This document shows positions 27,500 through 37,510 of a stretch of 37,510 nt of DNA, piece by piece. A model generated the notes under the pieces. That model saw only the letters and a list, made by a program, of their open reading frames with translations. It made no database searches and was not told where the DNA came from. This stretch comes from a virus: the IMG/VR virus record IMGVR_UViG_3300031718_000092, positions 1-37,510 of that record; one strand, given 5' to 3'. The position numbers and the translations under genes were made by a program. The stretch's first letter is position 1. Each line of letters begins with the position of its first letter.

Positions 27500-27710
27500 C
27501 GTGCGCCCGGTGTTGGTCGAGGATGTCCTGTTGGGCGGTCTCCATGGCGCCTATCATCTCCATGACGGTGGCGTCCCCATAGAACTTCCACGACCATGTA
27601 TCGCCATAGCGCGTGATGAGGATGCCGGTGTCGGGCTTGTCACGGGACAGATGCGCGATGAGCGCGTCCAGGTCTCGTTCCTTCGGGGTGCGCAACTTGG
27701 TGACTGACAT
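27483..27710 (-). CDS. Small hypothetical protein upstream of TerL, 75 aa
   Basis: Not recognised. Starts MSVTKLRTPKERDLDALIAH. ATG 27710 overlaps the methyltransferase stop (TGATG); its own end overlaps the TerL start by 17 nt. Mixed alpha/beta, with GDTWSWKFYGDATVMEMIG. Position allows a packaging role, but small terminases usually carry an HTH, which is not seen. Confidence 0.6.
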   Translation of the reverse strand: MSVTKLRTPKERDLDALIAHLSRDKPDTGILITRYGDTWSWKFYGDATVMEMIGAMETAQQDILDQHRAHDEIPA

Positions 27711-28252
27711 CAGAGGACCACGTATTCCTGGTTGCCGGTTGACGACTGCTTTATCTGCTCGGCCGTGAACCACTCTCGCACGGCGCGCTTGGCGCCCTCC
27801 AGGTTAGGTGAATCATCGAACCAGATGACGCCGCCCTTCAACATGCGCGGCAACAGATACCAGATGCTCTTGTGTACGCTCTCGTACTGGTCGCAGTCAA
27901 CGTGAGCGAACGCGATATACTTCCCAGTGAACTCCTTGGAGGCGCAGTCGGGGAACACGCCCTTGACCACGATGGCGTCGGGGATGGCGCGCTGCACTTC
28001 CTCGTAGCTGGTGTCCGCGAACTCTCCGATCTTGTGCCGGTCCCACAGCGGATGCTGGTTCGGCATCCCCTCGAAGGTGTCGTAGCAGATGAACCACCGG
28101 CCCTGCTGGGTGGCGAGCTTGTCCAGGTGCCAGGCGGTTCCGCCCTTGTAGACGCCGACCTCCAGGAAGCAGCCGTGCGCGGGCGTCACTTCCGCGAGCT
28201 TCAACATCTCCGTAATGGTGCCGATGTCCACCAGGGAGTGCGGGGAGCCCAT
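27710..28252 (-). CDS. TylF/MycF-like O-methyltransferase, 180 aa
   Basis: A class I methyltransferase with the glycine loop EVGVYKGGTA at 31-40, the acidic pair in YDTFEGMP at 57-64, HVDCDQYES at 117-125 and FDDS at 145-148. The two metal-binding positions of macrocin-type O-methyltransferases match the D-x-D and D-D sites. Substrates in the family are sugars or small molecules. The start is placed at ATG 28252, 4 nt after the upstream stop. It is the second methyltransferase of the window and the only evident metabolic enzyme in the late region. A role in modifying a glycan is possible. Confidence 0.8.
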   Translation of the reverse strand: MGSPHSLVDIGTITEMLKLAEVTPAHGCFLEVGVYKGGTAWHLDKLATQQGRWFICYDTFEGMPNQHPLWDRHKIGEFADTSYEEVQRAIPDAIVVKGVFPDCASKEFTGKYIAFAHVDCDQYESVHKSIWYLLPRMLKGGVIWFDDSPNLEGAKRAVREWFTAEQIKQSSTGNQEYVVL

Positions 28253-28256
28253 GGTA

Positions 28257-28487
28257 TCAACCTGGGGTTGGCTCAAGGTCGCTCTCGGTGGCGGTGAGGA
28301 CATGGTGGCCGCGCTTGCTGGCCCAGCCGAAGTAGTCGCGTAGATTGGCGTTCTCTGGCTTCGCCAGCTCGGCATCGGTCGGCTTGACGTGGTACATGGT
28401 GCCGTCGCGCCCGGTGATGACGACCTGCATGGGCACCGGCACCTGATGGCTGCGGATGAGTGTGGCGGTGGTGCCCTCGTCTCTCAC
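28257..28487 (-). CDS. Small hypothetical protein, 76 aa
   Basis: Not recognised. GTG 28487 overlaps the upstream stop (GTGA), giving a protein starting VRDEGTTATLIRSHQVPVP. It ends ESDLEPTPG. Mixed composition, no membrane segment. Confidence 0.5.
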   Translation of the reverse strand: MRDEGTTATLIRSHQVPVPMQVVITGRDGTMYHVKPTDAELAKPENANLRDYFGWASKRGHHVLTATESDLEPTPG

Positions 28488-29008: not shown

Positions 29009-29037
29009 GAAATACCACATCTTGCAAGGCGTGTATA
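29009..29037 (-). promoter_or_regulatory. Leftward late promoter candidate
   Basis: Minus strand: -35-like TATACA (29037-29032), 17-bp spacer, -10 TATTTC (29014-29009) preceded by TGG, an extended -10. It carries the recurring TGTGGTAT motif. It would start transcription about 30 nt before the ribosome site of gene 28974. Overlapping on the plus strand is a -10-like TATACT at 29034-29039, which could serve the rightward micro-gene at 29120. Confidence 0.5.
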
Positions 29038-29263: not shown

Positions 29264-29358
29264 ACTTTACATCGCCCGGGTTAGCGCCCCTGGGCGGCCG
29301 GGTACGGGGCTAAATGGCTACGATTCCTGATGCCCCGTGTCCTGCCTTGGAATTAAAA
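29264..29358. other. Structured intergenic stretch without a gene
   Basis: GC-rich segment between the rightward micro-gene and the leftward terminator. It can form ACGGGGC/GCCCCGT (7 bp, a loop of about 21 nt) and other CG stems. I checked for a tRNA and saw no T-loop pattern. It may be a small RNA or simple spacer. Confidence 0.25.
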
Positions 29359-29385
29359 GGCCCCGGCGTGTTACCGACCGGGGCC
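29359..29385 (-). terminator. Rho-independent terminator, leftward
   Basis: Minus strand: perfect 8-bp stem GGCCCCGG/CCGGGGCC with an 11-nt loop, followed by TTTTAATT. It ends the micro-gene operon that reads down to 29441. Confidence 0.8.
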
Positions 29386-29440: not shown

Positions 29441-29611
29441 TCAAGTCTTGATCGTGAACATCCTGCCAGGCTTGCGCCAGAACAGGCCGATGATGAGCGG
29501 TTCCACGTGGAACACCATGCGCAGGCGCCCCACTTCCAGGTAGGTCACGTCTAGGTCTGAACTGCGGGATGGGTTGAATACCAGCCCCCAGTCGGTCGTG
29601 ACGGCTTTCAC
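29441..29611 (-). CDS. Micro-gene, 56 aa
   Basis: GTG overlaps the stop of the preceding 13-codon ORF (GTGA). It reads VKAVTTDWGLVFNPSRSSDL and goes on with beta strands (VTYLEVGRLRMVFHVEPLII). It is the last of a six-frame coupled chain, and a terminator follows. Function unknown. Confidence 0.55.
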   Translation of the reverse strand: MKAVTTDWGLVFNPSRSSDLDVTYLEVGRLRMVFHVEPLIIGLFWRKPGRMFTIKT

Positions 29612-29649
29612 TTGGGGTAGGTCCGGCGCTGTATGTGGAATATACCCAT
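29608..29649 (-). CDS. 13-aa coupled ORF
   Basis: MGIFHIQRRTYPK. Start and stop overlap both neighbours (TGATG and GTGA). Too short to judge alone; the tight coupling of the whole chain is the evidence. Confidence 0.35.
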   Translation of the reverse strand: MGIFHIQRRTYPK

Positions 29650-29819
29650 CAGCAGGCGCCTTTCAGGGTGCCGTTCGGGCGGGAGCCTAACCCGTAGGTC
29701 TTGGTGGGCTGCATACCGCTATCACCCTTCTGGTTCTGGTTCGGCGGGTTGTAGGACTGACCGCGGGTGTTGCGTTCCCCGATCTTGGTCTTGCTATGGT
29801 CTACGGTACGGCCGGGCAT
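29649..29819 (-). CDS. Micro-gene, 56 aa, polar
   Basis: Starts MPGRTVDHSKTKIGERNTRG; the rest is Asn/Gln/Pro/Gly-rich and probably disordered. TGATG overlaps join it to both neighbours. Confidence 0.5.
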   Translation of the reverse strand: MPGRTVDHSKTKIGERNTRGQSYNPPNQNQKGDSGMQPTKTYGLGSRPNGTLKGAC

Positions 29820-29872
29820 CAGCGTGGTTTCCGCTTGTAGCCGGCGCGGGGACTCGGGCGTTGTTTCAACAT
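29819..29872 (-). CDS. 17-aa basic ORF
   Basis: MLKQRPSPRAGYKRKPR, preceded by AAGAGGTGA and followed by an overlapping ATG (TGATG). Very basic. Kept because of a ribosome site and coupling. Confidence 0.4.
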   Translation of the reverse strand: MLKQRPSPRAGYKRKPR

Positions 29873-29876
29873 GGGG

Positions 29877-29990
29877 TCACCTCTTGGACGACTTTCGGGT
29901 ATCGCGCTTGGTGCGCTTGCCGCGGGGATTCCCGGCGGCTACACCCTGGCGGGTGGTGCCGAACACGGTTATGGGCTGGGATTTCCTCAT
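29877..29990 (-). CDS. Basic micro-gene, 37 aa
   Basis: Starts MRKSQPITVFGTTRQGVAAG and ends RDTRKSSKR; strongly basic. The ATG overlaps the stop of the 147-residue gene (ATGA). It may bind nucleic acid; no family is recognised. Confidence 0.5.
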   Translation of the reverse strand: MRKSQPITVFGTTRQGVAAGNPRGKRTKRDTRKSSKR

Positions 29991-30430
29991 GGTGAACTGA
30001 GTGTAGCCTCGAGGTAGGACACTTGCAAGGTCGCCAGGGCCGCGGTCTCACCGGGCGCGCAGACGGCGATCTTGATCGTGTAGTCGCCGGGATCAGTGAT
30101 GATGGGTTCCCTGGGCTCGTAGTCCGAGACGTTGTGTAGGTAGATGCCGTCGGCCCGGTATTCCAGGACGCCCAGCCAGGCAGTCGTGCCGCCAGGGATG
30201 GTGCGTTCGCCCATGGTCAGATCCATGCCGGCCCACTTGAGCAGGGCATCATCCTTCGGGGGATTGCCGTTCACGGACTCCACGAACCCGACGACGCCGG
30301 AGACCGTGACATCGCTCTGGACCGAGACTTTCAGGACGCGCATGGGGGCGGCGGATTCCTTGTCCTTGCCGTACTTCACGTGGGGAGAAATCACGTAGTC
30401 ATTGATGGCGAGCATCATGGCAGTCCTCAA
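29987..30430 (-). CDS. Hypothetical beta-rich protein, 147 aa
   Basis: First and longest gene of the micro-gene chain. Mainly strands (VKVSVQSDVTVSGVVGFVE and YTIKIAVCAPGETAALATL), suggestive of an Ig-like or jelly-roll fold. GAGGAC precedes the ATG. TACCACATCTTG in its leader (30439-30433 reversed) is a recurring motif. Could be a head decoration or host-interaction protein; uncertain. Confidence 0.6.
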   Translation of the reverse strand: MRTAMMLAINDYVISPHVKYGKDKESAAPMRVLKVSVQSDVTVSGVVGFVESVNGNPPKDDALLKWAGMDLTMGERTIPGGTTAWLGVLEYRADGIYLHNVSDYEPREPIITDPGDYTIKIAVCAPGETAALATLQVSYLEATLSSP

Positions 30431-30476
30431 GATGTGGTAGGCCCAATCAGCGTAGTACAGACGCGGGCAAAAAGAA

Positions 30477-30498
30477 AGCCCCAGGTTAGGCTGGGGCT
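30477..30498 (-). terminator. Rho-independent terminator, leftward
   Basis: Minus strand: perfect 8-bp stem AGCCCCAG/CTGGGGCT with a 6-nt loop, followed by TTCTTTTT. It ends the transcript of the two small genes at 30871-30558. Confidence 0.85.
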
Positions 30499-30557
30499 CA
30501 ATGCCGGTTGGGGTTACCGGCTGGGCAGGGTCTACGGAAACATCAGGGATAGTCTAG

Positions 30558-30918: not shown

Positions 30919-31056
30919 TTAGCAGGCAGGTGCTAAACTTGCCGGTAGGTGTTCACGGCACCCAATCAAAGAATACCACATCTTCTCCCGATTGCAAGCC
31001 GTGTCCCCCAGCCGGGGCTGACCCGTCCCTGCCCAACTCGCATCGGCGAGCGGCAA
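30919..31056 (-). CDS. Possible TTG-initiated micro-protein, 45 aa
   Basis: Minus strand: AAGGAGGA (31068-31061), then TTTA and TTG. The frame reads LPLADASWAGTGQPRLGDTA and ends SLAPAC at a stop six nt before a terminator hairpin. Ribosome site, frame and terminator make a complete small unit. Against it, the frame contains a promoter-like TTGCAA (30992-30997) and TATTCT (30975-30970) pair, so it may instead be a leader region. Confidence 0.4.
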   Translation of the reverse strand: MPLADASWAGTGQPRLGDTACNREKMWYSLIGCREHLPASLAPAC

Positions 31057-32793: not shown

Positions 32794-33454
32794 GAAAACC
32801 GTCCTTGCGTGGCATTTCCTCGCCGAAGCCAAGCTGGCGAATGGCGATGGACGCGCCGTCGCGGTCGGCAAGAAACTGACCGTCGAGGGCGATATATCGC
32901 TGTGCAACCTAGGCCTGCATGGCTCCGTGCGCCTCATCGACGCGTTGAGCTACGCCTCGGGCGCTCTGCTCTGCCGCGTCCGCCATTCCGGCGCCATCAT
33001 CCACGGCGATGACAAGCTGTGCAGCAGCGAACGCATGGTGCTGTGGATGGGTGATGTGTCAACCATCCTGCACGAGTTCGCCTGCGATGAAGCCGAGCGC
33101 GCCTTGGAAGCACGGCGCAAGGCCGGCGACACCATAGACCCGCGCTCCACGGCGGCCATCAAGGCTAAGCGGGATTGGCTCGCTGGAAAGATCACGGACG
33201 CCCAGTTGGCCGCTGCCTGGGCCGCTGCCAGGGCCGCTGCCAGGGACGCTGCCTGGGACGCCCAGTTGGCCGCTGCCTGGGCCGCTGCCAGGGACGCTGC
33301 CTGGGCCGCTGCCAGGGACGCTGCCTGGGACGCTGCCAGGGCCGCTGCCAGGGACGCTGCCAGGGACGCTGCCAGGGACGCTCAGAACAAGCGCCTGACG
33401 GCCATCATCATGAAGCGCATCAAAAAGGAGACAGCGAAGAAGCGCAGCCGCTAA
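32768..33454 (+). CDS. DUF7666-type protein with Ala-rich repeat, 228 aa
   Basis: The N-terminal part (about 10-120) has motifs of the DUF7666-type phage/bacterial family: LAWHFLAEAKLANGDGRAVA, LCNLGLHGSVRLIDALSYAS, GALLCRVRHSG and the DDKLCSSERMVLWMGD block. Residues 144-206 are tetrapeptide repeats A-A-[WR]-[AD], then a basic helical tail (KRIKKETAKKRSR). Function is unknown. The repeats probably form a long helix with Trp/Arg/Asp on one face. GGAG lies upstream of the ATG. It parallels the A-V-x-x repeat of the DUF6745-type protein. Confidence 0.75.
   Translation: MTNHPNRSKKTVLAWHFLAEAKLANGDGRAVAVGKKLTVEGDISLCNLGLHGSVRLIDALSYASGALLCRVRHSGAIIHGDDKLCSSERMVLWMGDVSTILHEFACDEAERALEARRKAGDTIDPRSTAAIKAKRDWLAGKITDAQLAAAWAAARAAARDAAWDAQLAAAWAAARDAAWAAARDAAWDAARAAARDAARDAARDAQNKRLTAIIMKRIKKETAKKRSR
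33197..33395 (+). repeat. 12-bp combinatorial coding repeat (A-A-x-x)
   Basis: Units GCTGCC-(T/A)GG-G(C/A)C with almost only these two variable bases. A 60-bp block starting at 33197 recurs at 33257 (shift exactly 60), including the flanking unique codons D-A-Q-L. Confidence 0.85.
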
Positions 33455-36815: not shown

Positions 36816-37510
36816 AATCAGTTAAACGCATCGACAAGCTCACTCCCGAACAGGAAGGCCGGTTTGCGGAGTGGCGTGACAAGTGGATACGCACGGGCCT
36901 ATGCACTGACCCGGCGGATCGCCAGAAGTTAGAGCAAGCCGTAAAGGTCTGCTACAAGAAGGCTGGCCTTGCGCCTCCCAAGCGGGTGGTGTGGGTAGAT
37001 TCTCCCATCGTCCTCGCGTTTGCCGCACCTACTGCTTCGTTCTTGTTGAAGAACGGCGGCGCTGTGGACGACGCTGTGCGCGACGCTGTGGGCGGCGCTG
37101 TGGACGACGCTGTGCGCGGCGCTGTGCGCGGCGCTGTGCGCGACGCTGTGGACGACGCTGTGCGCGGCGCTGTGCGCGACGCTGTGGGCGACGCTGTGCG
37201 CGGCGCTGTGCGCGGCGCTGTGGGCGGCGCTGTGCGCGACGCTGTGGGCGTCGCTGTGGGCGGCGCTGTGCGCGGCGCTGTGGACGACGCTGTGGGCGTC
37301 GCTGTGGGTGACGCTGTGGGCGGCGCTGTGGACGACGCTGTGCGCGGCGCTGTGGACGACGCTGTGGGCGTCGCTGTGGGTGACGCTGTGCGCGGCGCTG
37401 TGGGCGGCGCTGTGGGCGGCGCTGTGCGCGACGCTGTGGGCGACGCTGTGCGCGGCGCTGTGCGCGGCGCTGTGGGCGGCGCTGTGGGGGACGCGGTGGG
37501 CGTCGCTGTG
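36812..37510 (+). CDS. DUF6745-type repeat protein, N-terminal part (continues at base 1)
   Basis: Starts MKSVKRIDKLTPEQEGRFAE, then KWIRTGLCTDPADRQKLEQA and KAGLAPPKRVVWVDSP, the N-terminal pattern of DUF6745 proteins. From about residue 84 it is A-V-x-x repeat to the window edge. Overlapping the last 20 bases with the first 20 keeps the frame and adds the C-terminal half at 1-896. Confidence 0.85.
   Translation, partial: MKSVKRIDKLTPEQEGRFAEWRDKWIRTGLCTDPADRQKLEQAVKVCYKKAGLAPPKRVVWVDSPIVLAFAAPTASFLLKNGGAVDDAVRDAVGGAVDDAVRGAVRGAVRDAVDDAVRGAVRDAVGDAVRGAVRGAVGGAVRDAVGVAVGGAVRGAVDDAVGVAVGDAVGGAVDDAVRGAVDDAVGVAVGDAVRGAVGGAVGGAVRDAVGDAVRGAVRGAVGGAVGDAVGVAV
37061..37510 (+). repeat. 12-bp tandem coding repeat, right part
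   Basis: About 37 consecutive dodecamers GCTGTG plus two variable codons, with no stop in the coding frame. The last unit carries GCGGTG instead of GCTGTG at 37493-37498, the single mismatch to the left edge. Confidence 0.9.

Follow-up and report, generated by a model that had tools for sequence, protein, structure and literature searches.

A chain of six overlapping frames upstream of a phage terminase, read as a putative four-protein operon with two candidate relay cistrons

The Locus and Its Genome Setting

The window analyzed in this work comprises an entire IMG/VR virus record (37,510 bases, GC content 59%), with the head and packaging genes found on the minus strand. The landmarks around the chain are the following.

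21662-20652, minus strand, major head protein
25243-23552, minus strand, portal
27499-25712, minus strand, terminase
27710-28375, minus strand, TylF-like / Methyltransf_24 methyltransferase (Pfam E 1.4e-12), between the chain and the terminase

The closest relatives are about 50% identical by the terminase and about 65% by the head protein. They are nearly all uncultivated, and two of them are circular genomes from Manatee Spring. The terminase relatives L095-L100 (44-49% identity) come from bins labelled Betaproteobacteria, Alphaproteobacteria, Patescibacteria, Nitrosomonadales, and Saccharibacteria, labels that are unreliable for phage contigs. The head genes and their order are common to the relatives, which share nothing of the gene content upstream of the terminase, the region of the chain; the methyltransferase was not found at that position in the related loci. 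The window also contains two arrays of a 12-nt repeat, at 33181-33418 and 36949-37510 (both plus strand), which apparently code for four-residue repeats; the second extends to the end of the record.

The chain is made up of six frames, listed here in the order of translation; the z values refer to the synonym shuffle described in the next section, and SD stands for the Shine-Dalgarno site.

29987-30418, minus strand, g143: 143 aa; SD AGGA (-5.9 kcal/mol); z 5.5; the alternative start TTG 30430 would give 147 aa
29877-29990, minus strand, g37: 37 aa, pI 12; ATGA overlap (-4) with g143; no SD; z 2.8
29819-29872, minus strand, g17, MLKQRPSPRAGYKRKPR: 17 aa; 4-nt gap after g37; SD AGAGGTGA; z 0.5
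29649-29819, minus strand, g56a: 56 aa, basic, rich in Asn, Gln, and Gly; TGATG (-1) start; no SD; z 3.6
29608-29649, minus strand, g13, MGIFHIQRRTYPK: 13 aa; entered by TGATG (-1), left by GTGA; z 1.3
29441-29611, minus strand, g56b: 56 aa, basic; GTG start in a GTGA overlap (-4); no SD; z 3.0

An earlier sequence-only reading of this DNA had described six frames joined in this manner, and checking every frame and junction on the minus strand bore this out: a stop/start overlap or a spacing of a few nucleotides holds along the whole chain (-4, +4, -1, -1, -4). The same reading gave the first gene 147 residues. The frame ending at 29987 is real, but its start is most likely ATG 30418 rather than TTG 30430, since the ATG has an AGGA five bases upstream and the TTG has no SD (-2.4 kcal/mol).

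The surroundings of the chain include two terminator-like hairpins and a further unit of small coupled frames.

29355-29385, minus strand, terminator-like hairpin GGCCCCGG...CCGGGGCC-TTTT downstream of the chain, -23.8 kcal/mol
30476-30499, minus strand, terminator-like hairpin with a T run before the chain, ending the preceding unit, -20.9 kcal/mol, z -3.5
30871-30558, minus strand, coupled small pair: a basic frame of 63-69 aa, followed through GTGA by a 35-aa membrane-type peptide MIAVAFVIGFFLGWILAIWLIG...

The hairpin with its T run at 29385-29355 lies where a terminator had been predicted after the chain; an equally stable structure was found in 2 of 200 shuffles, and the z value for 29395-29345 is -2.6. 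On the other side, the coupled pair at 30871-30558 precedes the chain and is itself followed by the terminator at 30499-30476. No promoter match was found between 30476 and 30418, so the unit is no more than putatively autonomous. The sequence TACCACATCTTG, exact or with one mismatch, is present at 29013-29024 (plus strand), 30428-30439 (minus strand), and 30974-30985 (plus strand), so that each of three units of small genes (28974-28484, the chain, and 30871-30558) is preceded by one copy, the one at the chain having the opposite orientation. With up to two mismatches there are five copies in place of the 1.7 expected, a number reached in 4 of 100 shuffles, and it is possible that these repeats are a shared operator.

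Chain Geometry and Codon Content

It had been suggested that the unbroken coupling of the six frames argues for real translation. The geometry alone turns out to be weak evidence: when the 550-nt stretch was dinucleotide-shuffled 3000 times with the start forced, linked frames covered at least 90% of it in 118 shuffles (3.9%), and at least five linked frames were obtained in 24 (0.8%). Real translation is better supported by the codon content, which is independent of the coupling geometry and is clearly decisive for four of the six frames, g143, g37, g56a, and g56b. With 18 of the phage's own structural genes as the training set for codon log-odds, the chain reaches 53 bits against a shuffle maximum of 13.7, a signal that g37, g56a, and g56b supply and g17 and g13 do not. 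Per codon, the log-odds are 0.46 for g143, 0.28 for g37, 0.46 for g56a, and 0.33 for g56b, all four exceeding the 99th percentile for out-of-frame stretches of equal length (g37 barely so, 0.28 vs 0.27). The values for g17 (-0.23) and g13 (0.24) are indistinguishable from noise in a test that has little power at 17 or 13 codons.

Shuffling synonymous codons while keeping the amino acids fixed gave the same division, with z values between 2.8 and 5.5 for the four frames and of 0.5 and 1.3 for g17 and g13, whose few codons again give little power. The GC3 of the four frames is 0.79-0.82, compared to 0.74 in the training genes. By these measures g143, g37, g56a, and g56b look like true genes. Between g37 and g56a lie 57 nt, and between g56a and g56b lie 37 nt, which carry no coding signature in any frame; nor do fusion or read-through frames drawn across them. 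These stretches are therefore best taken as spacers and not as missed parts of genes.

Ribosome Sites and the Relay Reading

Strong pairing with the tail of the 16S RNA is found at two starts only, those of g143 and g17. The pairing at g17 (-11.5 kcal/mol) falls in the top 0.9% of all ATG and GTG starts on the strand. An SD is absent at g37, g56a, g13, and g56b, a pattern that would fit a dependence on translation of the frame upstream. The start of g56a is 57 nt past the stop of g37, and that of g56b is 37 nt past the stop of g56a; with g17 and g13 in place, the gaps become +4/-1 and -1/-4 junctions, respectively. A bridge as tight as g17 and with an ATG start occurs in 0.2% of shuffled spacers. 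A bridge like g13 is common by chance (5-10% of shuffled spacers), which makes g13 the weaker link of the two; it is probably a relay cistron or a chance frame.

In E. coli, reinitiation was found to be reduced by 80-100% at a gap of 38 nt (PMC10666635), and a short upstream ORF that serves only to deliver a ribosome is a proposed mechanism (review PMC12548453). g17 fits this form, being short, led by an SD, and overlapping with its stop the start of g56a (TGATG); g13 has no SD of its own. Having no SD and being 57 and 37 nt away from the previous stop, g56a and g56b would be beyond the range of coupling if the relays were absent. The best support for g17 and g13 as real frames is indeed that the SD-less frames following them have no other evident start route.

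Given the SD pattern, the lengths of the spacers, and the 38-nt limit of coupling, the economical reading of the chain is a four-protein operon with g17 and g13 as relay cistrons, to which we would assign a probability of roughly 0.55. The chain would then be a small accessory operon of a tailed phage, bordered by the two terminator-like hairpins, presumably carried on one transcript, and encoding proteins of 143, 37, 56, and 56 aa. The only two entry sites for ribosomes would be the SDs of g143 and g17, the latter very strong. Those finishing g143 would pass on to g37 by termination-reinitiation at the ATGA. Those recruited by g17 would be handed through the TGATG to g56a, and g13 would carry them over the next spacer, in by TGATG and out by GTGA, to g56b. 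A more specific version, in which g17 and g13 are purpose-made relays of 17 and 13 codons with no functional peptide, and in which one internal SD feeds three successive reinitiations for the sake of two small proteins, is more tentative, and we would give it somewhat less than even odds.

Alternative Readings

The six frames could also all make functional products, with g17 being a basic micro-peptide like those found after the portal in this clade, a class of 10-15 codons that is proven in the relatives and is discussed in the last section. As much as 41% of g17 is Lys or Arg, and SD-led ATG frames as basic as this number two in the window, the other being a portal-gap micro-gene, against about 0.05 per strand in shuffles. 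We nevertheless consider this reading unlikely, given the lack of a codon signature in g17 and g13, the location of g17 away from the conserved post-portal site, and a search that found no relative of g17.

Another view of the chain is that one or two longer genes were broken by frameshifts or a stop, through decay or an assembly error. g37 and g56a share a reading frame and are separated by 20 codons that include a single TGA, and the coding signal switches frame twice along the stretch, both as might be seen in a broken gene. A single broken gene would not be expected to contain 57- and 37-nt spacers that are coding in no frame. Moreover, the stop-to-start junctions are of the -4 and -1 types, the strong SD sits exactly at the start of g17, and no intact longer relative was found in the collections searched. 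Breakage is, in our judgment, improbable.

Slightly less credit can be given to the idea that only g143, perhaps with one or two more, is a gene and the remainder a run of chance frames: the 3.9% of shuffles with such coverage speak in its favor, while g37, g56a, and g56b each bear the codon signature independently, and the 53 bits are far from the values, at most 13.7, seen in shuffles. Finally, read-through of the g37 TGA into g56a to yield a longer second product is very improbable, for although the two share a frame with no further stop between them, the 19 intervening codons lack the coding signature (-0.20 per codon) and an SD and a start come directly after the TGA.

Properties of the Predicted Products

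The description of the products as small and basic applies to the five small ones, with pI values of 10-12, but not to the 143-aa protein, which is acidic (pI 4.7). The accompanying proposal that such proteins target host enzymes found no support, as searches of family, fold, and defense libraries gave no match. For g143, g37, g56a, and g56b there was no credible profile match in Pfam, PHROGs, NCBIfam, or PADLOC, and a PDB sequence search gave nothing credible. Homologue searches were similarly empty, for g143 in IMG/VR, GTDB contigs, INPHARED, and 25 whole related records, for g56a and g56b in IMG/VR and INPHARED, for the chain-region proteins by tblastn on 163 related loci, and for a neighboring 111-aa gene, it being understood that these searches used exact 8-residue seed patterns or records without a positive control, which distant homologues could escape. 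The best weak match, of g56a to locus L081 (E 0.077 over 18 residues), was judged to be due to chance.

Modeled from its single sequence, g143 is predicted with low confidence (pLDDT 56) to be a beta-sandwich. The fold neighbors of this model are middling: NPC2 scores best (Z 6.5, rmsd 3.9 over 107 residues), level with many Ig-like folds, and there was no match in BFVD at E 0.001. With only generic beta-sandwich neighbors of a low-confidence model, deriving a function from the fold was given up. The model of g56b was uninformative. Our most likely guess is that the proteins may form a moron-like accessory set that is replaced rapidly, in which the 143-aa protein would be a beta-sandwich binding domain.

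Comparison with Known Systems

Termination-reinitiation at -4 (ATGA) and -1 (TGATG) overlaps has been described by Huber et al. (2019, 2023; PMC6728339, PMC10666635), and the same junction types are found in the chain. The SD-less genes of the chain sit at distances where coupling is efficient in those systems, although coupling is here read from the sequence. The chain differs in that two of its frames have only 13 and 17 codons and are relay-like, and in that the linked products are uncharacterized small proteins. g17 further resembles the ribosome-delivering upstream ORF (review PMC12548453, citing Shell et al. 2015) in its strong SD, very short length, and stop/start overlap; coding selection was not detected in it, with little power at 17 codons. 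Unlike that ORF, g17 is internal to an operon, and a second relay without an SD, g13, comes after it, so that several successive reinitiations would be needed.

The chain is also like the small-gene cassettes of phages (review PMC11323111) in that its genes are very small, mostly basic, without homologues, and near the packaging genes. A row of small genes before the terminase is present in the GenBank relative MW202825. Coupled runs of at least three small frames before the terminase were seen in only 3 of 35 related loci, with frames of 59-73 aa except for one of nine codons, and no homologue was found there. Overall, the chain is a tidy but not a revolutionary arrangement. It is of interest for the amount of coding content in phages that can escape the length thresholds of gene finders, and because it offers a small, naturally occurring system in which chained reinitiation through relay ORFs could be tested. 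Should the relay reading be true, ORFs of this kind, acting as spacers from one genuine gene to the next, would amount to a means of translation control that goes unseen in gene-finder output.

Micro-Genes after the Portal

In most relatives, the gap after the portal has one or two SD-led, Lys/Arg-rich frames of 10-15 codons, such as MYKKMKRGRKTRR, MARKARKGRKARK, and MRRKGRKAKR. These are found in about 50 related loci, and examples are given here together with those of the window.

23459-23362, minus strand, micro-genes of the window: MTRKRKHKR at 23459-23430, coupled by TAATG to MKRTARQRMAARSNLRKARRKR
Locus L005, 6925-6966, micro-gene in the gap between the portal and the next gene
Locus L061, 12675-12716, micro-gene in the same gap
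Locus L093, 4758-4799 and 4878-4919, micro-genes in the same gap

Among 837 kb of related loci, 95 of the 96 gene-strand frames of this type come after the portal and ahead of the next head gene (or of the locus end), and the other strand has only one such frame. DNA alignments show that the micro-genes are conserved with a strong third-position bias: substitutions occur at rates of 0.081, 0.107, and 0.339 at the first, second, and third codon positions, compared to 0.173 in the flanks, with the reservation that the loci are related and do not give independent pairs. In IMG/VR, 69 stretches encode exactly the peptide MYKKMKRGRKTRR. Its 80 copies in the related loci, where some contigs are represented twice, have 18 different DNA spellings; 79 copies are from loci that have a portal match, and every one of these is downstream of the portal on the same strand. 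The evidence for real micro-genes is stronger at the portal gap than anything put forward for the chain itself, and these extremely basic products of 10-15 residues, in a large clade of uncultivated phages, may matter more than the chain. With an SD and 41% Lys/Arg (the class has at least 40%), g17 would fit in with them, being slightly longer than usual at 17 codons, but it is off site, upstream of the terminase instead of in the gap behind the portal. MW202753 and MW202825, the two GenBank relatives inspected, have CDSs annotated on the opposite strand over the micro-genes, and the micro-genes themselves are left unannotated.
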